DNA from: Kitasatospora sp. NBC_00374
GTDB taxonomy: Bacteria > Actinomycetota > Actinomycetes > Streptomycetales > Streptomycetaceae
Direction of reading: 5' to 3'
NCBI RefSeq assembly: GCF_041434935.1
Contig: NZ_CP107964.1
Coordinates: 7,547,001 to 7,611,000, forward strand
Length of the DNA stretch: 64,000 nucleotides
Under the pieces are notes generated by a model. It made no database searches and was not told the DNA's origin. It saw nothing but the letters and a program-made list of their open reading frames with translations. Below, piece by piece: positions 15,276-64,000 of this stretch. Within the stretch, counting starts at the first letter, position 1. The number at the start of each line of letters is the position of its first letter. The position numbers and the translations under genes are program-made.

Positions 15276-15322
15276 CTAGGGGCCGGATAGGGGTTGAGAG
15301 CGCCCCGGCCGGACCATAATCT
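15276..15322 (+). promoter_or_regulatory. Predicted activator-dependent promoter of the three-module PKS gene
   Basis: Two TAGGGG boxes at 15277-15282 and 15288-15293 are exactly 11 bases apart, one helical turn. A TAATCT -10-like hexamer lies at 15317-15322, 28 bases after the A of the second box. A TTGAGA at 15294-15299 with CATAAT at 15315-15320 is an alternative -35/-10 pair (15-base spacer). The same layout recurs before other operons of this cluster. The 5' leader would be about 170 bases. Confidence 0.6.
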
Positions 15323-15495: not shown

Positions 15496-31446
<15,951 letters not shown>

Positions 31447-46987: not shown

Positions 46988-47490
46988 GTACCGCGCTCCT
47001 TGCTTCGGTCCCGGTTGCCGCCGCCCGGGGCCGAGGATTCACTGTGGGCCGTGGATTTTTCAAAGAGAGTTCTTCCCGGCGGTACCGGCGCTGGGCGCCG
47101 TCCTACGGGGTGTCAGGTGGCCTGGATGGGGCGTCGGAACCGTCTGCGAGCTGGTGGTTCATCGCTTCGGACGGAGCCGGCACCGCCCGGGAACGGCGTG
47201 TCAGCAGCAGGAGTCGACGATGCGTCTGGGGGCTTCCGGAAGCTGTGGAGCAGCCGAATACCCGACCCTGATTTGTTGAATGCCGTATCCCGTAGCCTGG
47301 AACACTGTTCCCCCGTGAACTGGCGGAGACAATTCGGCCTGACCCGGATGAAGAATGGTCCGAGATTCAACCAGAATCGTGTCCGCGCGGATTCCATGCC
47401 CGTCCGCTCCGCCACCCTGCCGGTCGTCCTGGCGGTGATTTGGAGTTGCGGGACAACTGATCTGAACATAACACTGCCGACCCCCGCCGG

Positions 47491-47532
47491 ACGATACTTG
47501 TCGTCAGGAACTGATCAAGTTTTGCGCCCCTA
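47491..47532 (-). promoter_or_regulatory. Candidate promoter of the LAL gene with AGGGG box
   Basis: On the - strand, TAGGGG (47532-47527) is followed by TTGATC (47518-47513) and, after 16 bases, TATCGT (47496-47491). The box-to-hexamer spacing (35) differs from the 28-29 seen at the other promoters, so this could be a plain -35/-10 promoter or an autoregulatory variant. Confidence 0.4.
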
Positions 47533-47539
47533 GGTGCGA

Positions 47540-47557
47540 TAGGGGTGGAGGTAGGGG
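47540..47557 (+). promoter_or_regulatory. Tandem TAGGGG boxes upstream of the LAL gene
   Basis: TAGGGG at 47540-47545 and 47552-47557, 12 bases apart, plus the inverted copy at 47527-47532. They match the boxes in front of the biosynthetic operons and suggest autoregulation or cross-regulation. Confidence 0.45.
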
Positions 47558-47846: not shown

Positions 47847-48365
47847 CTACGGCTGCGAACAGTCGGAACAGTCGGTGTCCCGCGGGTGTGCGGGCGGGGG
47901 GACGGTGTCGGTGTCGGTGGTGCGGTGGGTCCTGACGATCAGTCGGCACCGGCGCCGGCGCAGCGTGCTGGTGAACTCCAGATGCGGGCCCAGATGGCCG
48001 ACGATCCGGTCCGCGGCCGACTTGGAGACGCCGAACAGCGCGGCCACCTCACGCATGGTCAGATCGGTGCGCCAGTAGGCCACCACCAGCAGGACGCGGT
48101 CGCCCAGGCAGAGCGTCCAGCGGCGTCCGGCCCGCGGGCCCTCGTCGCCGGCGAGCGGGCGCAGGGTCTCCAGCAACTGGGCGAACTCCACGGCGCCCAG
48201 GCCGGTCAGCAGCTGCACCCAGGTCGCTTCCGCCGCGCTGATCAGCTGCGTCACGGGCGGCCCGGGCCGCTTTGCCGCGGTGTCGGGCCGCTGCGCCCCG
48301 GCGCCGGCCTGCTCGGCCGGGCCGGTCCCGTTCCTCGCACCACGTCCACCGCCGCCGTCCCTCAT
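47847..48365 (-). CDS. HTH protein resembling the N-terminus of an IS5-family transposase
   Basis: 172 residues from the ATG at 48365, which follows AAGGTGG. A GTG at 48395 is an alternative start. The first 50 residues are Gly/Ala/Arg-rich. The core RRWTLCLGDRVLLVVAYWRTDLTMREVAALFGVSKSAADRIVGHLGP region is the HTH that precedes the DDE domain in Streptomyces IS5/IS112-like transposases. The protein stops soon after RRRRCRLIV, exactly where the DDE domain (usually DGTLVPT) should begin, so the catalytic part is missing. It may be a decayed insertion element or a domesticated DNA-binding protein. It follows the amine oxidase gene by 49 bases on the same strand, so it is probably in that operon. 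No inverted repeats marking an IS were found. Confidence 0.7.
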   Translation of the reverse strand: MRDGGGGRGARNGTGPAEQAGAGAQRPDTAAKRPGPPVTQLISAAEATWVQLLTGLGAVEFAQLLETLRPLAGDEGPRAGRRWTLCLGDRVLLVVAYWRTDLTMREVAALFGVSKSAADRIVGHLGPHLEFTSTLRRRRCRLIVRTHRTTDTDTVPPPAHPRDTDCSDCSQP

Positions 48366-48414: not shown

Positions 48415-50094
48415 TCACTCCTCCGGCAGGAGGACGGGCGCGATCTCGTCGAAGACGTCTCCGGGGCCGGGATTGGCCGGATCGCAGGCGCCACCCAGAT
48501 GGCGCACCACTCCCCAGACCGCGTTGAGCGCGGTGGTGACCGCACCCTCGGCGAACCCCGCCGTCCAGGAGACGTCGTCCCCGGCCAGGAAGAACCCGCG
48601 CTGGCCGGCCGGAAAGCCGTCCTGTACGAACTGGGTGAACAGCCGCCGCTGGTAGCGGTACTGCCCGGGGAGGTTCGCCTTGAAGGCCCCCATGAAGAGT
48701 GGCTCGGTCTCCCAGGTCACCGTAATGGGTGCTCCGATGATATGCCCACGGAGATCAACATCGGGATAGATTTCCGCCAGCCGCACGAGCAGGACCTCCA
48801 GCCGTTCCTCGTCGCTCAGCGTGGCCAACTTCAGCGAGTCGTCATTCCACGTGTACGAAAGGCATATGACCCCCGGGCGGTCCGGTCCCTCGTCGAAGAG
48901 ATACACCCCGCGGGGTGCACGGTCGGTGAGCGTCATGCTCATCACGTCGGCCCCGGTCCGGGGATCGACATCCAGCCAGAACGGCCGGTCCGTGAGCACG
49001 AAGAGCTTCGAGGCGCCCATGTAGTGGGTCCGCTCCACGGCCGTCCAGTGCGCCTGCGACAGCAGGGCCGGATCGCACTCGATGCGGTTCAGCAGCGTCC
49101 ACACGTGCGGGGTGAAGACCACCGCCGGATAGTGCTCGCGGACCCCGTCGGCGGCCGTGACCTCGACCCCGTCCCCGGCCCGCCGCAGCGCCCGCACCCC
49201 CGGCCGTGGACGGCCGCCGTGCAGCGAGGCCAGCGAGGTGCCGGCCGGCCAGTGGCCGCCCGGCCCGGCCGGCCGGGTCCACAGCCCGTCCACCAGCCGC
49301 CCGGTGCCGCCGACCAGCCGGACCTGGTCCTGGTCGGCGCCGGTGTACACCACCCGCAGCACCTCCAGGATGGAGTTGGGGAAGTCGGTGTCCCAGCCGC
49401 CGGTGCCGAAGCCCACCTGTCCGAAGATCTCCCGGTGCCGGAACGACCGGAAGTACGGCGAGGCGGCCAGGAACCCGTAGAAGGACTGGTCGTCCATGGT
49501 GCGCACCATGCGGTTCCACACCGCCTTGAGCAGCGGGGCGTCCCGGCGCCGCACCGAGTCCTCCATGACGCTCAGCTCGGCCTGTTCCAGCAGCGTCTTC
49601 TCCCAGGCGTCGGCGACCTCACGGAACACCGGCGGCAGATCGTCCACCGTCCGCGCCAGCCGCCGCTCGCCGTGCAGGTGCACCACCGTGCTCGGCGTGT
49701 GCGCCGCGAGCGGGTTGGGGAACGGACTGGTCGTCAGGCCGAGCGCGTCGACATAGTGGAACAGCGTCGTCGCCGACAGCGGGAAGCGCATCGCGCCGAC
49801 CTCCGCCGTCACCCCCGGATCGGCCGGGAAGGGCACCGCCCGCATCCGGCCGCCCAGCACACCGGCCTCGTACAGCACCGGCCGCAGCCCCAGCCGCATC
49901 AACTCGTACGCGGCCACCAGGCCGGCCACGCCACCGCCCACCACCGCCACCGCGGCGCCGAGCCGCTCGGCCGGCACCCGGCCGAGCCCGGCCGGGTGCC
50001 GCAGCCAGTCGTCGTAGGCGAACGGGAAGTCGGGGCCGAACATCGTCAGCGGAGCGGTCAGGTCACGCGAGAGGTCGCCGGTAGCGGGAGACAT
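48415..50094 (-). CDS. FAD-dependent amine oxidase/amino-acid 2-monooxygenase (probable arginine 2-monooxygenase)
   Basis: 559 residues of the flavin monoamine-oxidase family. An FAD-binding GGGVAG lies at 53-58 with the following acidic residue near 75 (LYEAG) and GGRMRA next to it. A C-terminal FAD motif reads FFLAGDDVSWTAGFAEGAV. It resembles tryptophan/arginine 2-monooxygenases and L-amino-acid oxidases. In PKS clusters with guanidino or amino starters, such enzymes turn arginine into 4-guanidinobutanamide with loss of CO2. The amidase gene just upstream (31-base gap) fits the next step. Good ribosome site GAAAGGTG. The substrate could also be lysine or ornithine; arginine is favoured by context, not shown by sequence. 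Confidence 0.87.
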   Translation of the reverse strand: MSPATGDLSRDLTAPLTMFGPDFPFAYDDWLRHPAGLGRVPAERLGAAVAVVGGGVAGLVAAYELMRLGLRPVLYEAGVLGGRMRAVPFPADPGVTAEVGAMRFPLSATTLFHYVDALGLTTSPFPNPLAAHTPSTVVHLHGERRLARTVDDLPPVFREVADAWEKTLLEQAELSVMEDSVRRRDAPLLKAVWNRMVRTMDDQSFYGFLAASPYFRSFRHREIFGQVGFGTGGWDTDFPNSILEVLRVVYTGADQDQVRLVGGTGRLVDGLWTRPAGPGGHWPAGTSLASLHGGRPRPGVRALRRAGDGVEVTAADGVREHYPAVVFTPHVWTLLNRIECDPALLSQAHWTAVERTHYMGASKLFVLTDRPFWLDVDPRTGADVMSMTLTDRAPRGVYLFDEGPDRPGVICLSYTWNDDSLKLATLSDEERLEVLLVRLAEIYPDVDLRGHIIGAPITVTWETEPLFMGAFKANLPGQYRYQRRLFTQFVQDGFPAGQRGFFLAGDDVSWTAGFAEGAVTTALNAVWGVVRHLGGACDPANPGPGDVFDEIAPVLLPEE

Positions 50095-50125
50095 GGGACA
50101 CCTTTCGGGGCCCGGCCCACCAGGG

Positions 50126-50929
50126 TCAGCCCAGCCGGGCGGGCAGACCCTCGTAGAGCTCGGGACGCCGGTCGAGGAGATAGGGAGTGTCGGCGCGCGC
50201 CTTCGCCACCACGGCCGGGTCGACGTCCGCCAGCAGCAGTCCCTCGACGGGATCCTCCAGCGTCACCCGCGTGCCGTCCGGGGCGGCCACCGTGGTCAGC
50301 CCGCAGAAGTCCAGGCCGCCCCGCTCGCCGATCCAGTTGGTGTAGGCCACGTACAGCTGGCTCTCGAACGCCCGGGCCGGCACCAGCGTCCTGGCGACGA
50401 ACTCCCAGGGCCGCATCAGCGCCGTCGGCACCACCAGCAGCTGCGAGCCGGCCATCGCGTGCGCCCGCACCGACTCCGGGAACTCCACGTCGTAGCAGAC
50501 CAGCAGACCCACCGTCAGACCGCCGAGCCGCGCCTGCACCACACCGTGGTCGCCCGGCACGAAACGGGAGGTGTCCACGTCGCCGAACAGGTGCGCCTTG
50601 CGGTAGGCCGCCAGCGTGCCGCCGTCCGCGGCCACCAGCCGGGCCGCGTTGTACACCCCGGTGCCGTCGTCCTCCGGCCAGCCGTGCACCACGGCGATCG
50701 AGAACTCGCGGGCGATCTCCGAGATCGCCGCACAGTGCGGGCCGTCCAACGGCTCGGCCGCCCGGGCCAGCGTGCCGGGCCGCAGCGGGTAGCCGCCCAC
50801 GGTCATCTCCGGCGCCACCAGCAGCTGCGCCCCCTCCCGCGCGGCCCGCCGGGCCGCCTCGCGCAACCGCGCCAGCAGATGCGGGACGTCGGGGGAGCCG
50901 CACGCGGCCTGCCAGCAAGCAATCCTCAT
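50126..50929 (-). CDS. Nitrilase-superfamily amidohydrolase (probable 4-guanidinobutanamide amidase)
   Basis: 267 residues with the complete Glu-Lys-Cys triad: Glu41 (LLVAPE), Lys111 (AAYRKAHLF) and Cys145 (LLVCYDVEFPE). This is the carbon-nitrogen hydrolase fold. Expected reaction: hydrolysis of the terminal amide from the flavin oxidase step to the free acid (4-guanidinobutyrate) plus ammonia. ATG with GAGGA nine bases upstream. First gene of a - strand operon (amidase, oxidase, HTH gene) that diverges from the acyltransferase operon across 255 bases holding back-to-back predicted promoters. Confidence 0.9.
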   Translation of the reverse strand: MRIACWQAACGSPDVPHLLARLREAARRAAREGAQLLVAPEMTVGGYPLRPGTLARAAEPLDGPHCAAISEIAREFSIAVVHGWPEDDGTGVYNAARLVAADGGTLAAYRKAHLFGDVDTSRFVPGDHGVVQARLGGLTVGLLVCYDVEFPESVRAHAMAGSQLLVVPTALMRPWEFVARTLVPARAFESQLYVAYTNWIGERGGLDFCGLTTVAAPDGTRVTLEDPVEGLLLADVDPAVVAKARADTPYLLDRRPELYEGLPARLG

Positions 50930-50986: not shown

Positions 50987-51021
50987 ACGCTAGGCGGGCC
51001 CCGTCCGCGCGACAACCCCTG
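50987..51021 (-). promoter_or_regulatory. Predicted activator-dependent promoter of the amidase-oxidase operon
   Basis: On the - strand a CAGGGGTTG box starts at 51021 and a TAGCGT -10 hexamer lies at 50992-50987, 28 bases from the A of the box. This is the same layout as at the other operons. The box forms one arm of the inverted repeat CCCCTG-AC-CAGGGG at 51016-51029. Confidence 0.6.
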
Positions 51022-51051
51022 ACCAGGGGCGGATCCGCCGCGCCCCGCGGC

Positions 51052-51108
51052 TAGGGGCGGCAGGGGTGGCAACAGGGGTGGCGGGCCCGCGGGCGTACGC
51101 GGTTACGT
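51052..51108 (+). promoter_or_regulatory. Predicted activator-dependent promoter of the acyltransferase operon
   Basis: TAGGGG at 51052-51057 is followed by two direct CAGGGGTGGC repeats (51061, 51073) 12 bases apart. A TTACGT hexamer lies at 51103-51108, 29 bases after the A of the last box. Transcription would begin near 51115, about 70 bases before the ATG. Confidence 0.6.
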
Positions 51109-51184
51109 TCCACCAGGACCCGACCGCCCCGACCCCGTCGACCGGCCCGGGCCCGGCCTCGAACCGCCGACAGAACGGGCTGAC

Positions 51185-52120
51185 ATGACGACCGGTGAGC
51201 CGGCGAGCAGCGCAATCGTCTTCCCCGCGATGGGCCCCTCGCGCTTCGCCGACTTTAGCCGCTTCATGGTGGCGAACGCAGCCGCCAGGGAACGCTTCGC
51301 GGTGGCCGACGAGGTGCTCGGCCACAGCGTCTTCGACGCGCTGCGCGCGAGCGACGACGACTACTCCGAGGTCGCCCAGGTGACCTCCTTCGTGACCTCG
51401 CTGGCCCTGGTCGACTGGGGCCTGGCGACCGGACGGCAGGCGCCCGCCGACTACTGCGCCGGGGTGAGCTTCGGCAAGCTGGCCGCCGCCGCCCACGCCG
51501 ACGTGCTGCCCTTCGAGGAGGCGGTGCGCCTGGTCGCGGAGACCGCCCGCTGCGAGCGCGAGTACTTCGCCGAGCATCACAGCGACATCGTCACCCACTC
51601 CTTCGTCAAGATCGGTCCCGAGCAGCTGGACGCGCTGCTCGCCGAACTCGCGGCCGCCGACGAGTGGTACGAACTCTCCTCGCACCTGGACCACGACCTC
51701 TACATGGTCTCGCTGTCCGAACGGGCGCTGGACGGCTTCAAGAAGCGCATCGGCGCCTGCGGCGGCTACTCGCTCTACACCATGCGCCCGCCCGCCCACG
51801 CGAGCATCTTCCAGCCGCTGCGCGACCGGGTCGAGCAGGACGTGCTGGCCGGCTACCGGCTGCGGGACCCGCGGCTGCCGATCGTCTCCGACCAGGACGG
51901 CTCGCTGGTGGAGAGCGCCGAGCAGGCCGCCGAGTGGATCCTCGGAGGCTTCGTCCGGCCGATGCGCTGGCCCGGCATCGTCGACACCCTGGCCGGCCGG
52001 GGCGTCGACCGGATCGCCATCGTCGGGCGCGACCGGCTGCTGCGCCGCCTCAAGTGCACCGTCGACAACTTCACCACCAGCACGCTCGCACCCGACTCGG
52101 CGCTCAAGCCCGCGGCGTGA
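51185..52120 (+). CDS. Discrete acyltransferase (probable starter-unit transferase)
   Basis: 311 residues, FabD/PKS-AT fold. The nucleophile region reads AGVSFGKLAAA, aligning without gaps to [11 protein letters not shown] of the PKS ATs here, so Ser is kept but the preceding His is Val. The following helix reads RLVAETARCE where the PKS ATs have [10 protein letters not shown]. The Arg that holds the malonyl carboxylate is Thr. A His remains in RPPAHASIF at the place of HAFH. The enzyme therefore probably transfers a mono-acyl group rather than malonate. In 4-guanidinobutyryl/4-aminobutyryl-primed PKS systems a discrete AT moves the starter from CoA to the loading ACP, and the first PKS gene here has a lone loading ACP. 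Weak ribosome site. Confidence 0.88.
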   Translation: MTTGEPASSAIVFPAMGPSRFADFSRFMVANAAARERFAVADEVLGHSVFDALRASDDDYSEVAQVTSFVTSLALVDWGLATGRQAPADYCAGVSFGKLAAAAHADVLPFEEAVRLVAETARCEREYFAEHHSDIVTHSFVKIGPEQLDALLAELAAADEWYELSSHLDHDLYMVSLSERALDGFKKRIGACGGYSLYTMRPPAHASIFQPLRDRVEQDVLAGYRLRDPRLPIVSDQDGSLVESAEQAAEWILGGFVRPMRWPGIVDTLAGRGVDRIAIVGRDRLLRRLKCTVDNFTTSTLAPDSALKPAA

Positions 52121-52217
52121 GCAGCCCGCACAGCGGCGCCGCAGCCCGCCGACCGGCCGGCGCCGGGCCGCCGACGCGCAGAGCGTGCGGCCGAGCGCCC
52201 GAGAAAGGCACCACCCC

Positions 52218-53081
52218 TTGACGAACCACCCCGGCGCGGCGCACGGCACGCTCTTCGCCACCAGCGACCTGCACATCGGCTACCAGGAGAACCGCGCGAT
52301 CGTCGAGGGCCTGCGGCCCGCGGCGCCGAACGACTGGCTGATCGTCGCCGGTGACATCGGCGAGATCATGGCGGACGTCCGGTGGGCGCTCGGACTGCTC
52401 GCCGAGCGGTTCGCCACCGTGGTCTGGGCGCCCGGCAACCACGAGCTGTGGACCCATCCGGCGGACCCGGTGGCCCTGCGCGGGGTACGGCGCTACGAGC
52501 ACCTCGTCGCGCTCTGCCGCGAGCTGGGCGTGCACACCCCTGAGGACCCCTACCCGGTCTGGCACGGCGAGGGCGGGCCGGTGCGGATCGCGCCGCTGTT
52601 CGTCGGCTACGACTACACCTTCCTGCCCCCGGGCGCCGCGACCAAGGCCCAGGCGCTGGCGCGGGCCCACGAGAGCGGCGCGGTCTGCTCCGACGAGTAC
52701 CTGCTGCACCCCGACCCCTACCCGAGCCGGGAGGCCTGGTGCCGGGCCCGGGTGGCGGCCACCGAACGGCGGCTCGCCGAGGCCGATCCGGCGGTGCCCA
52801 CCATCCTGGTCAACCACTACCCGCTGGTGCGCGAGCCGACCGACGTCCTGTACTACCCGGAGCTCGCGCAGTGGTGCGGCACCACGGCCACCGCCGACTG
52901 GCACACCCGCTACAACGTGGCGGCCGTCGTCTACGGCCACCTGCACATCCCCCGGCGCACCCGCCACGACGGCGTGCGCTTCCAGGAGGTGTCGGTCGGC
53001 TACCCGCGCGAGTGGCGCCGCCGAGGCCCCGACGTGCCCTCGGGCCTGACCCGGATCCTGCCGGAGCGGGGCACCCGGTGA
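52218..53081 (+). CDS. Metallophosphoesterase
   Basis: 287 residues from a TTG start that follows GAGAAAGG; an in-frame GTG at 52185 is less well placed. All calcineurin-like metal motifs are present: SDLHIG (DxH), VAGDIGE (GD), GNHELW (GNHE), LVNHYPL and YGHLHIP (GHxH). The two metals are expected to hydrolyse a phosphoester. The natural substrate is not known. It is translationally coupled to the phosphopantetheinyl transferase gene (GTGA overlap), so a role in carrier-protein or CoA-related phosphoester chemistry is possible, which is inference. It lacks the GGDHS-type motifs of agmatinases, so it should not remove the amidino group. Confidence 0.85.
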   Translation: MTNHPGAAHGTLFATSDLHIGYQENRAIVEGLRPAAPNDWLIVAGDIGEIMADVRWALGLLAERFATVVWAPGNHELWTHPADPVALRGVRRYEHLVALCRELGVHTPEDPYPVWHGEGGPVRIAPLFVGYDYTFLPPGAATKAQALARAHESGAVCSDEYLLHPDPYPSREAWCRARVAATERRLAEADPAVPTILVNHYPLVREPTDVLYYPELAQWCGTTATADWHTRYNVAAVVYGHLHIPRRTRHDGVRFQEVSVGYPREWRRRGPDVPSGLTRILPERGTR

Positions 53082-53740
53082 TCGAACGGATCCTGCCCGC
53101 CCGGGTCGCGGCGGTGGAGTCGACCTCGCAGACCGGGGCGCCGACCGCCGACCTCTTTCCCGAGGAACTCGCCTACATCGCACGCTCGGTGCCGCACCGC
53201 CAGGCCGAGTTCGGCGCCGTACGCCGGTGCGCCCGGCGCGCGCTCGCCGCCCTCGGACAGCCGGCCGTGCCGCTGGTCCCCGGACCGCGGGGCGAACCCC
53301 GCTGGCCCGCCGGGGTGGTGGGCAGCATGACGCACTGCACCGGCTACCGGGCGGCGGCGCTGGCCCCGGCCGACGAGGTGCTGAGCCTGGGGATCGACGC
53401 CGAGCCCGACCTCCCGCTGCCCGACGGCGTGCTGGAGGCGGTCGGCCGCCCCGAGGAACTGCCCGGGCTCGCCCGGCTCGGCCGTGCCCACCCGGAACTG
53501 CACGCAGACCGGCTGCTGTTCAGCGCCAAGGAGAGCGTCTACAAGGCGTGGTTCCCGCTGACCGGCCTGATGCTGGACTTCTCCGAGGCCACCCTTGCCT
53601 TCGAGCCGGACGGCACCTTCACCGCCCGGCTCCTGGTGCCGGGGCCGCTCGTCGCCGGCCGCCGCCTGCCGGGCTTCGAGGGCCGCTGGACGGCCTCGTC
53701 CGGGCTGGTCCTGACGGCGGTCGCGGTGCCCCACCCCTGA
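53078..53740 (+). CDS. 4'-phosphopantetheinyl transferase (Sfp/EntD type)
   Basis: 220 residues. The GTG start overlaps the upstream stop (GTGA). Motifs: GSMTHCTGYRAAAL, LGIDAEP (metal-binding Asp-Glu) and FSAKESVYKAWF (Lys/Glu), in the order usual for the EntD branch. It transfers phosphopantetheine from CoA to the ACP serines, activating this PKS. A cluster-owned enzyme fits the large number of ACPs here. Its 3' end is followed by 319 bases with the ligase promoter. Confidence 0.93.
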   Translation: MIERILPARVAAVESTSQTGAPTADLFPEELAYIARSVPHRQAEFGAVRRCARRALAALGQPAVPLVPGPRGEPRWPAGVVGSMTHCTGYRAAALAPADEVLSLGIDAEPDLPLPDGVLEAVGRPEELPGLARLGRAHPELHADRLLFSAKESVYKAWFPLTGLMLDFSEATLAFEPDGTFTARLLVPGPLVAGRRLPGFEGRWTASSGLVLTAVAVPHP

Positions 53741-53806
53741 ACTCCCAGGGGGCTTTCGCCGGACGGCAGTTGGTGCGACGGAGCGCCTCCTCGGGCTGGG
53801 GGCGGA

Positions 53807-53841
53807 TAGGGGTACTGCGGCCCGCGACCGGTCGGTAACGT
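53807..53841 (+). promoter_or_regulatory. Predicted activator-dependent promoter of the acyl-CoA ligase gene
   Basis: TAGGGG at 53807-53812 (AGGGGT, as in the other operons) and TAACGT at 53836-53841, 28 bases after the A of the box. The remainder of the 53741-54059 gap is GC-rich and shows no gene. Confidence 0.55.
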
Positions 53842-54059
53842 CCGGAACGCGGCGGCGCGGCTCCCCCCGGCCTCCGGCTCCGCCGAACGGCGCGCCCGAC
53901 GCCGGCGCCGCAGCTGCCCAGGGCCCGGACCGGGCCCGACCGAGACCGTGTCGGCCCACTGCCGCGGTCTTTCCCCACGGCCCCGGATCCGACGCCCGTG
54001 CGCCGGAGTTGCGGGCGCGTCCCGCGGTGGCCGCCGAGTAGAGAAGGAAGAGTGAGCCG

Positions 54060-55484
54060 ATGGCGGCAAAGATCCTCGCGGAGGACTCGGCGGTGACCCT
54101 CGCCGCGTTCGAGCAGGACACCCTGAGGGTCGCGCAGGTCCTGCGCGAACGCGGTGTCGGGCTCGGCAGCAGGGTACTGCTGAAGGCCGGGAACTCCGCC
54201 AGCTACGTGTCGGTCCTGTTCGCCCTGATGCACGTGGGCGCCTCGATCGTGCTGCTCGACCAGCAGGAGCGGGCGGAGGCCACCGGCTCCGTCGTCCGGC
54301 GGTCCGGCGCCAAACTCGTCCTGGTGGACGACGACGCCCCGGTGCCGGCCGACGTCGACCCCGTGCACCTCTACGAGCTCATCTCCGCGGCCCCCGAGGT
54401 CCGGGTCACCGACGAGCACCTGGACTTCGGTGCCTGGAGCGACCTCGACGACGCCCTGATCATGTGGTCCTCCGGCTCGACCGGCGAGCCCAAGGGCATC
54501 GTCAAGAACGGCGGCCGGTTCCTGAGGAACCTGGAGCGCAACGCCCACCACATGGGCCACCGCGCCGACGACGTGCTGCTGCCGCTGCTGCCGTTCTCCC
54601 ACCAGTACGGCCTGTCGATGGTCCTGATCGCCTGGATCGTGCAGGGCTCCCTCGTCATCGCCCCCTACAAGCGCCTCGACCGCGCCCTGCGGATGGCCGG
54701 CCCTTCGGGCGCCACCGTCCTGGACGCCACCCCGGCGACGTACCGCAGCATCCTCGGCATCCTGCGCCAGAAGCCGGCCCTGGAGCGCTCGCTCGGCGCG
54801 GTGCGGATGTTCTGCAGCGGCGCCGCCCCCCTCGACCAGGCCCTCACCGACCTGTACGTGGAGCAGTTCGGCCTGCCGCTGCTGGACAGCTACGGCAGCA
54901 CCGAGGCCGGCAACGTGGCCTTCGCGACCTCGGACAACCCGGTCTCCTGCGGCCGGGTCATGGACGGCCTGCGGATCCGGGTCGTCGACGACGAGGACCA
55001 CGAGGTGCCGGCCGACGTGGTCGGCGAACTGCTGGTCGAGACACCGGACGTGATGATCGGCTATCTGACCGGCGACGGCGGTGTCGACCCCGTCCCGCAG
55101 GACGTCTTCCGCACCGGGGACCTCGGCTACCTGGACACCGACGGGAACCTCTTCGTCCTCGGCCGGAAGTTCGCCGTGCACCGCAACGGCTACACCCTCT
55201 ACCCGGAGATCGTCGAGCGCAAGGCCGCCACCGGCGGCTGCGCCACCCGCATCGTGGCGCTGCCGGACGAGCGCCGCGGCAGCAGCCTGGTCTTCTTCGT
55301 GGAGGACGAGCAGCTGCGCGAGGCCGCCCACTGGCGCGGCCTGCTGAACGAGCTGCTGCCCGCGTACGAGCAGCCGAACCGGGTGGTGGTCCTGGAGCGC
55401 TTCCCGCTCAACCGCAACGGCAAGCCTGACAAGCGCCGGATGACGGAACTGGCGCTCGCCGGGGCCGGCCAGGCGGCCGCCTGA
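54060..55484 (+). CDS. Acyl-CoA ligase (ANL superfamily), starter activation
   Basis: 474 residues, with GAAGGAAG before the ATG. Adenylation motifs in order: IMWSSGSTGEPKG (P-loop, about 138-150), DSYGSTEAGN, GELLVETPDVMIGYL, FRTGDLGYLD, LGRKFAVHRNGYTLYP and the C-terminal LNRNGKPDKRRM catalytic Lys. It should activate a carboxylic acid as acyl-AMP and pass it to CoA. With the oxidase and amidase it completes arginine to 4-guanidinobutyryl-CoA, the likely substrate of the discrete acyltransferase. It is a single gene with its own predicted promoter. The exact acid is not readable from sequence; 4-aminobutyrate or a related amino acid is possible. Confidence 0.9.
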   Translation: MAAKILAEDSAVTLAAFEQDTLRVAQVLRERGVGLGSRVLLKAGNSASYVSVLFALMHVGASIVLLDQQERAEATGSVVRRSGAKLVLVDDDAPVPADVDPVHLYELISAAPEVRVTDEHLDFGAWSDLDDALIMWSSGSTGEPKGIVKNGGRFLRNLERNAHHMGHRADDVLLPLLPFSHQYGLSMVLIAWIVQGSLVIAPYKRLDRALRMAGPSGATVLDATPATYRSILGILRQKPALERSLGAVRMFCSGAAPLDQALTDLYVEQFGLPLLDSYGSTEAGNVAFATSDNPVSCGRVMDGLRIRVVDDEDHEVPADVVGELLVETPDVMIGYLTGDGGVDPVPQDVFRTGDLGYLDTDGNLFVLGRKFAVHRNGYTLYPEIVERKAATGGCATRIVALPDERRGSSLVFFVEDEQLREAAHWRGLLNELLPAYEQPNRVVVLERFPLNRNGKPDKRRMTELALAGAGQAAA

Positions 55485-55508
55485 CGTCCCCGGTGCCCAC
55501 GGTCCGCC

Positions 55509-55550
55509 GGACTGACGGAGCCCGCGGCCGTCCCCGCGGCCCGTCAGTCC
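55509..55550. terminator. Hairpin between convergent ligase and response-regulator genes
   Basis: Arms GGACTGACGG (55509-55518) and CCGTCAGTCC (55541-55550) are perfect, with a GC-rich interior that can pair further. The right arm overlaps the stop of the - strand response-regulator gene. Confidence 0.6.
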
Positions 55551-56188
55551 AGCAGGCCGCGCTCCATCGCCGCCAGGACCGCCGCCGTGCGGTCGGACAC
55601 GTCGAGCTTGCGGAAGATCCGCAGCAGGTGCGTCTTGACCGTCGCCTCCCCGATGTGGAGCTCGCGACCGATGTCGGCGTTGGTCAGTCCCCGGCCGACC
55701 AGCTGCAGCACCTCGCGCTCACGGGCGGACAGCGGCTGCGGCTCGTGCGCCCGCGCCCGGAACAGCCGGCCGGCGACCGCGGGGGAGAGCACCGTCTCAC
55801 CCCGGGCCGCGGCCCGCACCGCGTTGATCAGGTCGACCCGCGAGGTGCCCTTCAGCAGGTAGCCGGCGGCGCCCGCCTCGACCGCGCGCAGGATGTCCGC
55901 ATCGCTCTCGTAGGTGGTGACCACGACCACGCGCGGGCGGCGCGAGTGCGCCAGGATCCGGGCGGTGGCGGTCACGCCGTCCATCGCGCCCATCCGCAGG
56001 TCCATCAGCACCACGTCCGGGGCCAGCGCGGCGGCCAGCACGACCGCCTCCTCGCCCCCGCCGGCCGTGCCGGCGACCATGATGCCCGGCGCCGACTCCA
56101 GCATCGCCGAGAGGCCCTCCCGCACCACCGGGTGGTCGTCGGCGATCAGCACGGTGATGGTCTGCTCGTCGGGCCGGGCGGTGCTCAT
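55544..56188 (-). CDS. NarL/LuxR-family response regulator
   Basis: 214 residues. Receiver domain with acidic pair Asp17-Asp18 region (LIADDHP), phospho-acceptor Asp63 (VVLMDLRM) and Lys113 (YLLKG). A C-terminal LuxR HTH lies at about 153-210 (LSAREREVLQLVGRGLTNADIGREL). Its start overlaps the kinase stop by ATGA, so the pair is translationally coupled and should act together. Likely targets: its own operon and the divergent membrane/PH operon, whose shared upstream region carries repeated GTCCACC sites. That is inference. Confidence 0.94.
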   Translation of the reverse strand: MSTARPDEQTITVLIADDHPVVREGLSAMLESAPGIMVAGTAGGGEEAVVLAAALAPDVVLMDLRMGAMDGVTATARILAHSRRPRVVVVTTYESDADILRAVEAGAAGYLLKGTSRVDLINAVRAAARGETVLSPAVAGRLFRARAHEPQPLSAREREVLQLVGRGLTNADIGRELHIGEATVKTHLLRIFRKLDVSDRTAAVLAAMERGLLD

Positions 56189-57597
56189 CGGGGCTCTCCG
56201 TCGTACGGGGCGGATGACTGGGCGGTGTCCAGGGCGTCCTGGGTTTCCACGGCGTCCTGGGTGTCCACGGCGTCCTGCGGGTCCCGGCCGTCCTGCGGCC
56301 GCGCCCCGGCGTCCGGTCCGCCGCCGAGCGGCACCCGTACGTCCACGACCGTGCCGAAGCCGGGCCGGCTGGACACCCTGGCCGTCCCCCCGATCTCCGC
56401 CAGCCGCGCGCGCAGGCCGCGCAGCCCGTACCCCTCGGTCCGCTGCCCGGCGTCGAACCCGCAGCCGTTGTCCGTCACCGTCAGCCGGACCTCACGGTCC
56501 GTGAACTCGGTGCGCAGGGACACCCGCTGGGCCCCGGCATGCTTGCGGACGTTCGCCAGCGACTCCTGCGCCGAGCGCAGCAGGACCACACCGACCGCCG
56601 TCGGCAACGGGAACTCCGTGCCCTCGGCGCTGTAGCCGACCGTCAGGCCGGTCTCGGCGGCCAGCGCCTCGCCCTGGCGCCGCAGCGTCTCGCCCAGCGA
56701 GTTGCCACGCAGTGCGGCCGGGGTGAGCGCCGCGACGAAGCCCCGCGTCTCGGCCAGGTTCGCGGTGGCGGACCGGGCGGCCAGGGCGAGGTGACGCCGG
56801 GCCAGCTCCGGCTGCTCCTCCAACTCCGACTCGGCGGCCTGGATCAGCGCGATGATGCTGGTCAGGCCCTGGGCCACGGTGTCGTGGATCTCGCGGGCCA
56901 GCCGTTCGCGCTCGGCGGCGATCCCGGCCTGGTGCGAGAGGTGGGCCTCCCGCTCGCGGCTGCGCTCCAACTCCTCGATCAGCCGGCCGCGGTCCCGGCT
57001 CTGCTCGACCACCCTGGTGATCCACAGACCCAGCAGCACCGTCAGCGCGATCCCCAGCAGCGTCAGCGGCAGGATGCCCAGCACCTCGGCGCCCAGCCTG
57101 CCGCTGCTGATCCACACCAGCACGGGCGGTACCAGGTTGGCGAAGAGCACCACCGCGATGCCGAGCGAGGTCGGCAGGCTCATCAGCAGCATCGGGCAGA
57201 TCGCGAACAGCGCGAACGCGCTGGCCAGATCGAGCGCGGCGGCGACCGCGAACAGCACGAGCAGGCCGAGGGCGAACCAGCGGCTGCGCGGCGGCTTCTC
57301 GCCGCTGCGCAGCAGCGGCCGCCCGAACGCGGCGTACCAGGGCACGATCAGGGTCAGCGCGGCGACCGCGCCCGCCACCCGGCCGGGCGCGGCCTGCGAG
57401 GTGAGCAGCAGCCCGGCGGTGACCACGTAGGACACGCCGAAGTAGGTGTCCCACAGGCCGACCCAACGGACCACCGGATCCTGCCGGAAGGCCGCCTCAC
57501 CGCCGTCGTCGCCGGCGGAAGGGCCCGCGGCCGGGCGGTCGTCGTCGGGGCCGCGGTCGGCGGCGGTGGGCTGGTCGGACAGGGCGTGAGCTGGCAC
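56185..57597 (-). CDS. Sensor histidine kinase (HisKA_3 type)
   Basis: 470 residues from the GTG at 57597, which has TAGGA about 11 bases upstream; a longer GTG start at 57615 and an upstream open frame exist but add a Gly/Arg-rich tail with no support. N-terminal hydrophobic segments (about four to five membrane helices: LLLTSQAAP, LGLLVLFAVAAALDLASAFAL and others), then a HisKA_3 dimerisation/phosphoacceptor region with His238 in AREIHDTVAQGL, and an HATPase domain (SLANVRKHAG, DNGCGF, GYGLRGL). The C-terminus has an 18-base tandem repeat that codes for QDAVxT-like hexapeptides. Partner of the response regulator downstream. Confidence 0.93.
   Translation of the reverse strand: MPAHALSDQPTAADRGPDDDRPAAGPSAGDDGGEAAFRQDPVVRWVGLWDTYFGVSYVVTAGLLLTSQAAPGRVAGAVAALTLIVPWYAAFGRPLLRSGEKPPRSRWFALGLLVLFAVAAALDLASAFALFAICPMLLMSLPTSLGIAVVLFANLVPPVLVWISSGRLGAEVLGILPLTLLGIALTVLLGLWITRVVEQSRDRGRLIEELERSREREAHLSHQAGIAAERERLAREIHDTVAQGLTSIIALIQAAESELEEQPELARRHLALAARSATANLAETRGFVAALTPAALRGNSLGETLRRQGEALAAETGLTVGYSAEGTEFPLPTAVGVVLLRSAQESLANVRKHAGAQRVSLRTEFTDREVRLTVTDNGCGFDAGQRTEGYGLRGLRARLAEIGGTARVSSRPGFGTVVDVRVPLGGGPDAGARPQDGRDPQDAVDTQDAVETQDALDTAQSSAPYDGEPR
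56227..56298 (-). repeat. 18-bp tandem repeat in kinase C-terminus
   Basis: Four 18-base units (56227, 56245, 56263, 56281), the last two least regular, encode repeated hexapeptides such as QDAVDT, QDAVET and QDALDT. The unit length keeps the frame, so copy number can vary without breaking the kinase. Confidence 0.8.
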
Positions 57598-57682
57598 GCT
57601 GACCAGTCCTACCACGCCCGGTCCGGCGCGTGCACCCGCCGCCCGGCGGCAGCCGCCTCCCACGGGTGCTGCGCCGCCCGCT

Positions 57683-57723
57683 GTCCACCGACCGGTGGAC
57701 AACCGGGTCCGTCCACCGGTTGT
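57683..57723. promoter_or_regulatory. Repeated GTCCACC sites between kinase and membrane operon
   Basis: GTCCACC-GACC-GGTGGAC (57683-57700) is a perfect inverted repeat. A third GTCCACCG follows at 57711, and ACAACCGG (57699-57706) pairs with CCGGTTGT (57716-57723). They lie in the divergent gap between the kinase start (57597) and the membrane gene (57814), upstream of a TAGCGT hexamer at 57746-57751. Likely binding sites of the response regulator (inference). Confidence 0.5.
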
Positions 57724-57813
57724 TCCGGCCCCCGAGCCGCGTCCCTAGCGTGGAAGCAGGGAGGACGGGACGTCAGGAGGTCCTCCACGGACGAGCAACG
57801 GGAGTCGCACCAC

Positions 57814-58323
57814 ATGAGCGGGTTCACCACCACCCTGGTGGTCAGCGGGACGGTACTGACCGTCATCCTGGCCAGTGACCTGGGCCGCCGCCGGATCACC
57901 ACCATGCGCCTGGTCCGGCCGCTGATCGCGGTGGCCGTCGTGATGGCGTTGTTCTTCCACACACCGCAACTGGCCGGCAACGACCTCTCGCTGCAACTGG
58001 TCGGAGTCGGACTCGGCAGCATTCTGGGCCTGGTCGCCGGGGCGATGCTGCCCGGGGAGAGGGATTCCGACGGAAACGTCTACACCAGGGCCGGCGTGCT
58101 GTACGTCCTGTTCTGGCTCGCCATGTCGGCGGCCCGGGTGGTATTCGTCTACGGAATCGAGCACTGGTACACGGCCGATATCATCGAGTTCGCCATCACG
58201 TACCGGATCAGCGGGCCGGAGGTCTTCTCGAATTCGCTCGTCCTGATGGCTCTCGCCACCGTACTCGCACGGACCGCCGTGGTGCTCAACCGCCGCCGAC
58301 GGCTCCTCGCCGCCACCCGATAG
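57814..58323 (+). CDS. Unknown five-helix membrane protein
   Basis: 169 residues with five hydrophobic segments (TTLVVSGTVLTVILASDL, IAVAVVMALFF, LVGVGLGSILGLVAGAML, GVLYVLFWLAMSAARVVFV, SNSLVLMALATVLARTAVV) and positively charged loops. I do not recognise the family; a CcdC/DUF1453-like protein is possible. It starts after a weak GGGAG ribosome site and is first in an operon with two PH-domain genes, divergent from the two-component system. The context suggests a job at the membrane, perhaps envelope stress or self-protection, which is inference. Confidence 0.75.
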   Translation: MSGFTTTLVVSGTVLTVILASDLGRRRITTMRLVRPLIAVAVVMALFFHTPQLAGNDLSLQLVGVGLGSILGLVAGAMLPGERDSDGNVYTRAGVLYVLFWLAMSAARVVFVYGIEHWYTADIIEFAITYRISGPEVFSNSLVLMALATVLARTAVVLNRRRRLLAATR

Positions 58324-58338
58324 AAACAGGAACAGGAA

Positions 58339-58839
58339 ATGCCCTCATCCGAAGGTCTCCGGCTGCGGCCACCGCGGCACCGGGTGGAGCGCCGCGCCGT
58401 CGCCTGGTGGACGGTGCAGGCCTCGCTGATCCCCGTGCCGCTCATCCTGACGGCAGCCGCCCTCTACCTGTTCATCCCGCCGGCCCGGTTCGTCTTCGGC
58501 TGGGTGCTGCTCGCCGTCGCCGTCCCGGGCCTGGCGTACATCGCGGTGATGCCGCAGTGGCGCTACCGGGTGCACCGCTGGGAGACCACCGACGAGGCGG
58601 TCTACACCGCCTCCGGCTGGCTCTGGCAGCGCTGGCGGGTCGCGCCGCTGTCGCGGATCCAGACCGTGGACACCGTCCGCGGCCCGCTGGAGCAGCTCTT
58701 CGGCCTCGCGGGGATCAAGGTGACCACGGCCTCCGCCTCCGGCGACGTCAAGATCCGCGGCATCGACCACCGCAAGGCCGTCGAGGTCGTCGAGCACCTG
58801 ACCCGCACCACCCAGGCCACCCCGGGAGACGCCACGTGA
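58339..58839 (+). CDS. Bacterial PH-domain membrane protein, YdbS-like
   Basis: 166 residues. Two N-terminal hydrophobic helices (WWTVQASLIPVPLILTAAALYLF, FGWVLLAVAVPGLAYIAV), then a bPH_2 domain (VAPLSRIQTVDTVRGPLEQLFGLAGIKV near residues 105-135, followed by SGDVKIRGI). It is the short partner of a YdbST-type pair and its stop overlaps the next gene's GTG (GTGA). Ribosome site AGGAA. In Bacillus subtilis ydbST has been linked to resistance against peptide antimicrobials; here a role in coping with the cluster's own membrane-active polyketide is plausible but unproven. Confidence 0.87.
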   Translation: MPSSEGLRLRPPRHRVERRAVAWWTVQASLIPVPLILTAAALYLFIPPARFVFGWVLLAVAVPGLAYIAVMPQWRYRVHRWETTDEAVYTASGWLWQRWRVAPLSRIQTVDTVRGPLEQLFGLAGIKVTTASASGDVKIRGIDHRKAVEVVEHLTRTTQATPGDAT

Positions 58840-60449
58840 GCCCCGAGCCGGCCGGCCCGCCCACCACCGGCACGGACGATCCCGCCCGGGGCGTCCTGCC
58901 CGGACCGCGCGCCGGGCAAGCGCCCGACGGGCCCGCCGACGGCGCCGACGGGCTTGCCTGGCAGCGGCTCAGCCTGCGCTCCGTCCCCGTCCACCTGAGC
59001 TGGTTCCTCGCACCCGTCGCCACCACCGCCGGCACCGTCCTCGGCGGGGACGGCACCCTCAACCTCCAGGCCCTGATCACCCTGGCCACCCTGACGGTCG
59101 CCTTCGGCGTGGTCGCCGCCGTCAACCTGATGCGCTGCCTCACCACCCGCTACCGGATCACCCACGACCGGCTGGAGGTGCGCAAGGGCCTGCTCTTCCG
59201 CAGCAGCCGCACCGTCCTGCTGGAGCGCGTCCGCAACGCCGACGTCACCGCCAAACCGCTCTACCGCGTCCTCGGCCTCGCCTCCGTCGCCGTGGGCGTC
59301 GCCGGCGGCGGCTCCTCGGGCGGCTCGCTGTCGCTGGACGGCGTCACCCGCGACCAGGCCACCGAACTGCGCCGGGACCTGCTCAACCGGCGCGCGGCGC
59401 TGCTCGCCGCCGACGGCGCACCGGCGGCGGAGGCCGAGGACGCGGCGATCGTCCGCTTCGACCGCACCTGGGTGCGCTACGCGCCGCTGACGATCTGGGG
59501 CGTCGGCGGCCTGTTCGCCGCGCTCGGAGTCACCTACCGCACGCTCCACGAGATGCAGGTCGACCCGCTGGAACTGGGCGCCGTGCGCGGCCTGGTCGAC
59601 ACCTTCACCTCCGTCCCGGTCTGGGTCGCCGTCCCGGTCACCCTGCTGGCCGTCGCCGCCGTCGGCACCGCGGGCGCGGTCGCCCTGTACGTCGAGGGCT
59701 GGTCCGGCTTCCGCCTGGAGCGCGAGGAGGGCGGCATCCTGCGGGTGCGGCGAGGGCTGTGGATCCACCGCTCGGTCTCCATCGAGGAGCAGCGCCTGCG
59801 CGGCGTCGAGGTGGTCGAGCCGATGCTGCTGCGCTGGGGCGGCGGCGCCCGGCTGCACGCCGTCGCGAGCGGCCTCGGCACCGCCGAGGAGAACCGCGCC
59901 CGGGGCACCCTGATGCCGCCCTCACCCCGCTCCGAGGTGCTGCGGGTGGCCGCCGCGGTGCTCGGCGACGACCGCTCGCCGACCGAGACCGCCGAGCTGG
60001 CCCGCCACCCCCGCCGGGCGCTGCGCCGCCGGATCAACCGAGGCCTGCTGGTCGTCCTGCCGCTGGTCGGCGTGGTGGCACTGCCCGGGATCTGGGTGCC
60101 CGCGTTCCTCACCGCGGCCGGGGTCGCCGCGGCCGTGCTGCTGCCTGTCGCCGTGCTGCTCGCGGTGGACGCCTACCGCACCCTCGGCCACGGCCTGGCC
60201 GGGCCCTACCTGGTGAGCAGGGCCGGCACCTTCGCCCACCGGACGGTCGCCCTCCGGCGCGAGGGCGTGATCGGCTGGACGGTCTCCCGCTCGTTCTTCC
60301 AGCGCCGGGCCGGCCTGCTGACGCTGGCCGCCGCCACCGCGGCCGGCGCCGGGGTGTACCGGGTGCGCGACGTCGCCGAGGGCGACGGGCTGGCCTTCGC
60401 CGAACAGGCCGTGCCCGGGCTGCTCGCGCCGTTCCTGGAACGCGACTGA
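58836..60449 (+). CDS. Bacterial PH-domain membrane protein, YdbT-like
   Basis: 537 residues from the GTG overlapping the upstream stop; a longer in-frame extension upstream is antisense-like filler without a ribosome site. Hydrophobic pairs alternate with three bPH_2-type segments (RITHDRLEVRKGLLFRSSRTVLLERVRNADV near 110; FRLEREEGGILRVRRGLWIHRSVSIEEQRLRGVEVVEP near 300; LVSRAGTFAHRTVALRREGVIGWTV near 470). This is the large partner of the YdbS-like protein. The two should form a membrane complex; the biochemical activity of the family is not established. It is followed by the intergenic region of the first PKS gene. Confidence 0.87.
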   Translation: MSPEPAGPPTTGTDDPARGVLPGPRAGQAPDGPADGADGLAWQRLSLRSVPVHLSWFLAPVATTAGTVLGGDGTLNLQALITLATLTVAFGVVAAVNLMRCLTTRYRITHDRLEVRKGLLFRSSRTVLLERVRNADVTAKPLYRVLGLASVAVGVAGGGSSGGSLSLDGVTRDQATELRRDLLNRRAALLAADGAPAAEAEDAAIVRFDRTWVRYAPLTIWGVGGLFAALGVTYRTLHEMQVDPLELGAVRGLVDTFTSVPVWVAVPVTLLAVAAVGTAGAVALYVEGWSGFRLEREEGGILRVRRGLWIHRSVSIEEQRLRGVEVVEPMLLRWGGGARLHAVASGLGTAEENRARGTLMPPSPRSEVLRVAAAVLGDDRSPTETAELARHPRRALRRRINRGLLVVLPLVGVVALPGIWVPAFLTAAGVAAAVLLPVAVLLAVDAYRTLGHGLAGPYLVSRAGTFAHRTVALRREGVIGWTVSRSFFQRRAGLLTLAAATAAGAGVYRVRDVAEGDGLAFAEQAVPGLLAPFLERD

Positions 60450-60485
60450 TCCGGCCCGCGCGGCATAAAGAAATGACACATCGGC

Positions 60486-60514
60486 TTTACCGCCCCGCCG
60501 TCGAGCGGTAGCGT
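60486..60514 (+). promoter_or_regulatory. Candidate vegetative promoter upstream of the first PKS gene
   Basis: TTTACC (60486-60491) and TAGCGT (60509-60514) with a 17-base spacer. It lies 200 bases before the ATG, upstream of the TAGGGG boxes. Confidence 0.4.
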
Positions 60515-60543
60515 GATCCGACTGCGGGCCCGGAATACCCCAC

Positions 60544-60595
60544 CGGGAATTCCCGCCGCGTATTCACCGGCCGGCGTCCCCAGGGATTTCCTAGG
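60544..60595. promoter_or_regulatory. Two GGGAWTTCC-type palindromic sites
   Basis: A perfect 12-base palindrome CGGGAATTCCCG (60544-60555) and, 38 bases on, CCAGGGATTTCCTAGG (60580-60595). Both share the GGGAWWTCC core of PAS-LuxR (PimM-type) operators but match only 12 of 16 consensus positions. The second runs into the first TAGGGG box. Confidence 0.4.
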
Positions 60596-60669
60596 GGCCG
60601 CCGGTCGAATCGTAGGGGTGATTAGGGGCCCCGTAGGGGGTTATCCGCCGCCCGATTCCCGTGGCACGC
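60592..60669 (+). promoter_or_regulatory. Four phased TAGGGG boxes and predicted promoter of the first PKS gene
   Basis: TAGGGG starts at 60592, 60613, 60623 and 60634, that is 21, 10 and 11 bases apart, close to whole helical turns. A weak -10-like GCACGC lies at 60664-60669, 29 bases after the A of the last box; TATCCG at 60642 sits 28 bases after the second box. The start codon at 60715 is about 45 bases on. This is the richest box array in the window, as expected for the first PKS gene. Confidence 0.6.

Positions 60670-60714: not shown

Positions 60715-64000
<3,286 letters not shown>

Follow-up and report, generated by a model that had tools for sequence, protein, structure and literature searches.

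A TAGGGG box at near-fixed distance from the -10 hexamer as likely activation site of a LAL regulator in a Kitasatospora polyketide cluster

A stretch of 64,000 nucleotides from the chromosome of Kitasatospora sp. NBC_00374 (contig NZ_CP107964.1, positions 7,547,001 to 7,611,000, forward strand; hereafter the window, whose numbering is used throughout) carries part of a polyketide synthase (PKS) gene cluster together with the gene of a LAL regulator. Five operons of this cluster are preceded by a G-rich box, TAGGGG in its general form, whose A is located 28-29 bases before the first base of a -10 hexamer. The same arrangement recurs near related LALs in other genomes, where the consensus extends to TAGGGGTT. 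In our view, TAGGGGTT is very probably the activation site of the LAL encoded in the cluster, which would bind it and work in the manner of MalT.

Results

A promoter layout shared by five operons

An earlier reading of the letters alone (the sequence-only reading) had described this layout with either C or T as first letter of the box and had proposed that the box occupies the place of a class II activator site. A recount of the window confirmed all of its box positions, the distances of 28, 28, 29, 28 and 29 bases from the A of the box to the hexamers at 15317, 50992 (- strand), 51103, 53836 and 60664, and the spacings within the arrays (11 at 15277/15288; 21, 10 and 11 at 60592-60634). The hexamers held up in part: those at 15317, 50992 and 53836 are strong, whereas those at 51103 and 60664 are weak and fit better one base on. 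Three promoters are thus classed as strong and two as weak, based on scores of 21.9, 16.1 and 16.1 compared to 8.9 and 7.0 bits against the profile R1, which is described below. The elements are as follows.

15277..15293, + strand: pair of TAGGGG boxes (spacing 11) upstream of the 15496 PKS gene; 21.9 bits, top profile match in the genome
15317..15322, + strand: -10 hexamer TAATCT, 28 from the box A
51016..51021, - strand: CAGGGGTT box of the amidase/amine-oxidase promoter; 16.1 bits
50987..50992, - strand: -10 hexamer TAGCGT, 28 from the box A
51052..51078, + strand: box triplet TAGGGG 51052, CAGGGG 51061 and CAGGGG 51073, spaced by 9 and 12, upstream of the acyltransferase gene; weak, 7.0 bits
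51103..51109, + strand: -10 candidates of the acyltransferase promoter, TTACGT (29) or better TACGTT (30)
53807..53812, + strand: TAGGGG box upstream of the 54060 ligase gene; 16.1 bits
53836..53841, + strand: -10 hexamer TAACGT, 28 from the box A
60592..60639, + strand: four TAGGGG boxes (21, 10 and 11 apart) before the PKS gene starting near 60715; weak, 8.9 bits
60664..60670, + strand: -10 candidates of the 60715 PKS promoter, GCACGC (29) or better CACGCT (30)

If the hexamers, which are predicted from the sequence, start at -12, TAGGGG would extend from about -42/-41 to -37/-36, and it would thus reside where a class II activator site is expected, in line with the earlier proposal.

The word AGGGG is found 73 times in the window. 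Among the 45 copies of YAGGGG, 17 are located in 13 intergenic gaps, assigned with a simple custom gene caller, which together comprise 3569 of the 64,000 bases. Seven of these gaps, chosen by the analyst, were shuffled, and they contain 17 boxes compared to 4.1 in dinucleotide shuffles (n=2000; standard deviation 2.0, largest 15), a count that is somewhat favoured since these are the 7 of 13 gaps that hold YAGGGG, the remaining six being devoid of it. The same seven gaps contain three pairs of a box with TANNNT at 28-29, compared to 0.026 in 2000 shuffles (largest 2). Here and in the following, strict counts include TANNNT hexamers only, looser hexamers being listed and left uncounted. Elsewhere in the same genome, in twenty 20-kb stretches (400 kb), none of 40 copies of TAGGGG has TANNNT at this distance.

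Recurrence at independent LAL loci

The motif search in related clusters that the sequence-only reading had suggested as a check recovers the same distance between the box and the predicted hexamers. At loci chosen by LAL homology alone, including one from Micromonospora wenchangensis, the distances peak at 28/29, and echoes near 39/40 and 50 correspond to copies located one and two turns upstream. The test (TAGGGG, TANNNT, 28/29) was fixed at this stage and then applied to untouched data, namely LAL loci from the order (n=20) and an equal number of control stretches from the same genomes. In these 20 Streptomyces-family LAL loci, 13 of 109 copies of TAGGGG are followed by TANNNT at 28-29 (0.13 expected), compared to 0 of 64 in the matched control stretches and 0 of 40 in 20 loci of LALs with another recognition helix. 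A second set of 13 LAL loci was obtained from a plasmid collection, in which 13 of 26 matching records were used, near-duplicates and shorter matches being omitted by eye; here 7 of 92 copies fall at 28-29 (0.08 expected). In the pooled data, 20 of 201 copies in LAL loci compare with 0 of 144. A strict box promoter is present in 9 of the 20 loci of the order, 5 of the 13 from plasmids and 6 of 20 from the genus, and in 0 of 60 controls.

The first letter of the box is part of the signal. In LAL loci, CAGGGG is not enriched at 28-29 (1/281, with 0.33 expected), and GAGGGG and AAGGGG give 2/255 and 0/123; in control stretches the three words give 2/257, 1/290 and 2/129, respectively. These counts indicate that the T matters and that C is a local variant. 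The T of the alternative first letter proposed earlier thus proved to be the general form, whereas the C finds no support beyond this cluster. In an unprompted count of all hexamers located 28-29 bases before intergenic TANNNT, TAGGGG ranks first in the LAL loci (13 occurrences; 285 TANNNT), and it is not the commonest hexamer in any of three other sets.

Anatomy of the site

The properties of the site are illustrated in 37 promoters from other genomes that were selected for TAGGGG and TANNNT at 28-29, near-duplicates being dropped only if identical over 40 bases; owing to this selection, only the other positions of the logo are informative. These extend the consensus to TAGGGGTT (T in 32 of 37, followed by T in 23 of 37) and reveal a second GGGG 11 bases upstream, each position of which is found in 23-27 of the 37 promoters. 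In contrast to the box, positions 8-25 behind it carry at most 0.26 bits, and the site is thus without an inverted half downstream. The repeats are phased: among pairs of boxes within 45 bases in the two LAL test sets, 26 of 37 are 10-12 or 20-22 bases apart, compared to a total of three pairs in the controls, two of them at these spacings.

Direct repeats in 11-base units, as known for SARP sites, are thus present. The last SARP repeat is located about 8 bases before the -10 hexamer and the spacer between the -35 and -10 elements of sigma-70-type promoters usually measures 16-19 bases; the gap of 23-24 bases between box and hexamer fits neither. SARP repeats were rejected as main explanation of the box.

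Profile searches in whole genomes

For whole-genome searches we used R1, a sequence-only profile of 31 sites from other genomes, five of them from orthologous clusters. Its training included orthologues of the 50987 and 53795 promoters and not those of 15277 and -35430 (negative positions precede the window); E-values are from a shortened calibration, and the search of the own genome scored 150 of 7431 first-look candidates. Among the matches listed for the 9.2-Mb genome, the four best, at 15277, -35430, 50987 (- strand) and 53795, with 21.9, 21.6, 16.1 and 16.1 bits, are all located in this cluster, and since the profile originates from other genomes the layout is not merely local. The best match outside the cluster scores 15.3 bits, 17 of the 21 matches listed lie elsewhere, and the two weak sites of the 51103 and 60664 promoters are absent among these 21.

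In 293 genomes of the order, R1 finds 36 matches in 30 genomes (E 0.005), four of the matches being training sites. A LAL of this class (E 1e-110) is encoded in 27 of the 30 matched genomes compared to 83 of 293 overall (p 1e-13), and with the training genomes set aside a match is found in 22 of 75 genomes with and 3 of 210 without such a LAL (p ~2e-11). Of the 32 untrained matches, 21 reside on the contig of a LAL, 20 of them within 110 kb, a limit chosen after the distances were known, and 19 within 80 kb. Within the genus (70 genomes), the LAL is found in 12 of 14 matched genomes compared to 38 of 70 overall (p 0.008), a count that includes training genomes and in which 10 of 26 matches are training sites.

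Conservation in orthologous clusters

The LAL has three close relatives in its genus (73-76%), in the strains ST-888 and GAS204B and in a third genome, G060. The record of ST-888 is named Saccharothrix sp., yet it falls in the genus of the window's genome and of Kitasatospora sp. GAS204B, and its name looks wrong. Boxes with a hexamer at 27-30 are kept in all three clusters, which we compared in ungapped lists; a poor MAFFT alignment of a divergent promoter region was not used. The two boxes of the 15496 PKS promoter, with their spacing of 11, do not vary among the three clusters aligned. At the amidase/amine-oxidase promoter, the orthologues read TAGGGG where the window has CAGGGGTT. The boxes of the acyltransferase promoter show the same spacing of 9 and 12 in ST-888, and its orthologues in all three clusters have TAGGCT or TAGGTT at 27 from CAGGGG. 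The ligase box is present in GAS204B and G060, and the short ligase gap of ST-888 contains no TAGGGG. Two orthologues of the 60715 PKS promoter have CAGGGT or CAGGCT at 28.

The LAL regulator and its surroundings

44102..46987, - strand: LAL regulator of 961 residues with an AAA_16 ATPase at its N end and a LuxR-type (GerE) helix-turn-helix (HTH) at 891-941, helix TVEQHLTRVYRKL; proposed reader of the box
47527..47557: group of boxes with no -10 hexamer at 27-30, upstream of the LAL gene; TAGGGG on the - strand (47527-47532) and TAGGGG on the + strand (47540 and 47552; 12 apart)

The combination of an N-terminal ATPase and a C-terminal LuxR-type HTH is that of the MalT-like class, and solved relatives of the HTH are NarL-, DosR- and GerE-type domains. 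Of the 20 test loci, 19 contain the helix TVEQHLT; in the comparison LALs the helix pattern was matched in 11 of 20 loci, with V, T, L, M or F replacing Q, and two LAL paralogues of the own genome (L002 and L003) carry TVEVHLT. The sequence-only reading had named the LAL as reader of the box with a corresponding reservation. This assignment gains support from the recurrence of box and spacing near related LALs, and the protein remains the presumed binder. Among proteins shorter than 1300 residues, the LAL is the sole family found in 28 of 28 box loci, followed by thioesterases (17), metallophosphoesterases (10) and response regulators (10). These loci were picked by hand, with those of weaker hexamers (e.g. 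L007 and L073) left out, and the presence of the LAL is a consequence of their choice by this protein, which does not apply to the absence of another common regulator.

The box group at 47527-47557 lies upstream of the LAL gene at a distance of about 540-570 bases from the gene start, and the + pair of the group, which points away from the LAL, is present in ST-888 and absent in GAS204B. The group is a possible autoregulatory site of the LAL gene. Also upstream of this gene, a perfect inverted repeat, AGTTG-CGGGA-CAACT, is found at 47444-47458 in a block that is kept in ST-888 and, with one change, in GAS204B; it is a possible operator of the LAL promoter. Between the amine oxidase and the LAL, a small protein of the HTH_Tnp_4 family (transposase-type HTH; 47847-48254, - strand) is encoded, which is a possible second regulator.

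Target genes of the cluster

15496..31446, + strand: PKS gene, target operon; KS, AT and DH domains in its first 1000 residues
48415..50094, - strand: amine oxidase; target operon 48415..50929, with the carbon-nitrogen hydrolase
50126..50929, - strand: carbon-nitrogen hydrolase; same target operon as the amine oxidase
51185..53740, + strand: VinK-like acyltransferase, metallophosphoesterase and phosphopantetheinyl transferase; target operon
54060..55484, + strand: AMP-binding ligase; target gene
60715..64000, + strand: PKS gene beginning with a carrier domain; runs past the window end

A simple map of the genes in 184 kb of chromosome shows giant genes over a range that starts about 35 kb ahead of the window and reaches at least 60 kb past its end, and the cluster is thus larger than the window. 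PKS domains were found in six 1000-residue stretches from six giant genes and in the last gene listed. Three further box sites precede the window, and at all of them another box is found 11 or 21 bases upstream: -35419 (hexamer TAGCGT at 28) and -17979 (TAGCGT at 29), both at PKS genes, and -19322 (TATTGA at 27, weak) at a gene of the arginase family. Among the gaps inspected, the layout was not found before 2885, 57814 and 95600.

The arginase-family gene (L039:854-1972; window -19146 to -18028) has its own weak box promoter and is located between two PKS genes; it is probably part of starter-unit processing. Together with this gene, the families of the amine oxidase, the carbon-nitrogen hydrolase, the ligase and the VinK-like acyltransferase, and the carrier domain with which the 60715 PKS begins, suggest that the starter unit may be made from arginine.

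Discussion

The described arrangement suggests a mechanism in which LAL subunits would line up head to tail along one helix face, bound to direct repeats of TAGGGGTT. The proximal subunit would overlap the -35 region and recruit RNA polymerase to promoters that do not contain a good -35 element, and a single LAL could turn on the PKS genes and the starter-unit enzymes together, much as MalT does. Boxes of this class were seen in loci of Kitasatospora, Streptomyces, Embleya and Micromonospora, and we lean, with less confidence than for the cluster itself, towards a broader view in which all LALs of the TVEQHLT class act as head-to-tail oligomers in the manner of MalT and share one operator code, TAGGGGTT located at about -41 to -34 and repeated in direct orientation about every 11 bases. 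One word and one spacing would in that case be enough to predict regulons for many silent polyketide clusters.

Several observations weigh against activation by the LAL. The evidence is correlational, and CAGGGG was not enriched in the LAL loci of the order, out of sample. A strict box promoter is absent from the stretch in 11 of 20 LAL loci of the order, 8 of 13 from plasmids and 14 of 20 from the genus; the targets of these LALs may lie outside the stretch or the proteins may read another word. A well-supported clade of the genus (L025, L026, L028, L030, L033, L034 and L036) has the TVEQHLT helix and shows no box promoter in the 20 kb read; its targets may lie elsewhere, or it may recognise a different word. 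Conversely, of the 32 untrained matches of R1, eight are on contigs without such a LAL and three in genomes without one, at the threshold applied and as counted by hand, one is located 2.5 Mb from the LAL on the same contig, and 2 of the 14 matched genomes of the genus contain only distant LALs. Four matches without a nearby LAL of the class (G302:C1:5772635, G196:C1:5732708, G127:C2:26196 and G177:C1:1137627) may be due to chance or be targets of a more distant LAL. Finally, the predicted site of the LAL FkbN is described as an inverted repeat (PMC6022917), and the smaller LAL SCO6993 of S. coelicolor is reported to footprint on palindromes (PMC9628970).

Alternatively, the box could be a genuine activator site with another reader, namely the response regulator at 55544-56188, the HTH_Tnp_4 protein at 47847-48254 or a global factor, which we consider improbable. 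The cluster contains the response regulator and its kinase (55544-57474), ST-888 retains both, and a response regulator is found in 10 of the 28 box loci; the pair, which was rejected as reader, is without match in the stretches of GAS204B and G060, which retain the boxes. The HTH_Tnp_4 protein is kept at 59-77% in all three orthologous clusters, yet none of the more distant loci examined contains a match to it. A global factor would account neither for the 0 of 64 boxes elsewhere in the same genomes nor for the untrained matches in proximity of LALs.

The box is very unlikely to act without an activator, as the -35 element recognised by an alternative sigma factor. Its location just upstream of the -10 hexamer at near-fixed distance would suit such a role, but the gap exceeds the usual spacer length, a -35 element does not need copies 10-11 and 21 bases upstream, and the profile matches cluster near LALs. 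We assign a similarly low probability to the box being half of the palindrome CTVGGGAWWTCCCBAG found in the -35 region for PimM-like PAS-LuxR regulators. The half-site CTVGGG resembles CTAGGG, and the DNA-binding region of PAS-LuxR proteins is described as similar to that of LALs, with the site located in the -35 region (PMC9774167); however, the 37 promoters show no inverted half after the box, and with up to three mismatches the palindrome occurs once in the window (15391; 2.4 expected) and not at a box. Chance in G-rich DNA, to which the abundance of AGGGG and the weak scores of two of the five sites might point, has a negligible probability and is refuted for the class of sites by the shuffles, the own-genome background, the matched controls and two untouched test sets, though single weak sites may be due to it.

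Activation by the cluster LAL, if true, would have consequences beyond the described cluster. LALs often serve as master switches of polyketide clusters, and in the literature consulted the sites that they bind are either not defined or known from prediction only; for the geldanamycin regulators, two of them LALs, a review from 2019 calls the recognised sequences still to be elucidated (PMC6784220). A word with fixed geometry that predicts targets across genera would make a regulon legible from sequence. It would guide the choice of the LAL to overexpress for waking a silent cluster and allow LAL-dependent promoters to be built. The box also makes a MalT-like mechanism of these LALs directly testable. 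Our literature searches brought up no paper that we recognised as describing the box, and none of those consulted does so; an earlier description, e.g. in work on targets of FkbN, may exist.

Known sites share some of these features. SARP heptamers differ from the box in their letters and in the last repeat, which is nearer to the -10 hexamer. They are, like the boxes, direct repeats in 11-base units, corresponding to one helix turn (PMC3367932). The sites of PimM and other PAS-LuxR proteins also combine a LuxR-type HTH with a GGG half-site in the -35 region of polyketide promoters, but form a 16-base palindrome in contrast to the direct repeats without inverted half found here (PMC9774167). 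FkbN, according to a review, is a cluster LAL that binds promoter regions of its own cluster in electrophoretic mobility shift assays, whereas its predicted site consists of two 7-nt inverted repeats and is PimM-like (PMC6022917). MalT, with activation sites in E. coli, Klebsiella and Actinoplanes SE50/110, is a regulator of the MalT/LAL kind whose G-rich word overlaps the -35 region (PMC7567727), and in Actinoplanes its motif is reported to end 34.4 +/- 1.0 bases before the start, near the position predicted for the box. In contrast, the MalT word is given as GGGGA(T/G)GAGG and the repeats in Actinoplanes are inverted, TCATCC-5-GGATGA (PMC7567727), whereas the consensus here is TAGGGGTT in direct repeats; the box thus would work like a MalT box without being one. 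What is known, therefore, is the kind of site, a class II position read by an ATPase-LuxR regulator, and what appears to be new is the word, its direct-repeat form and its breadth.

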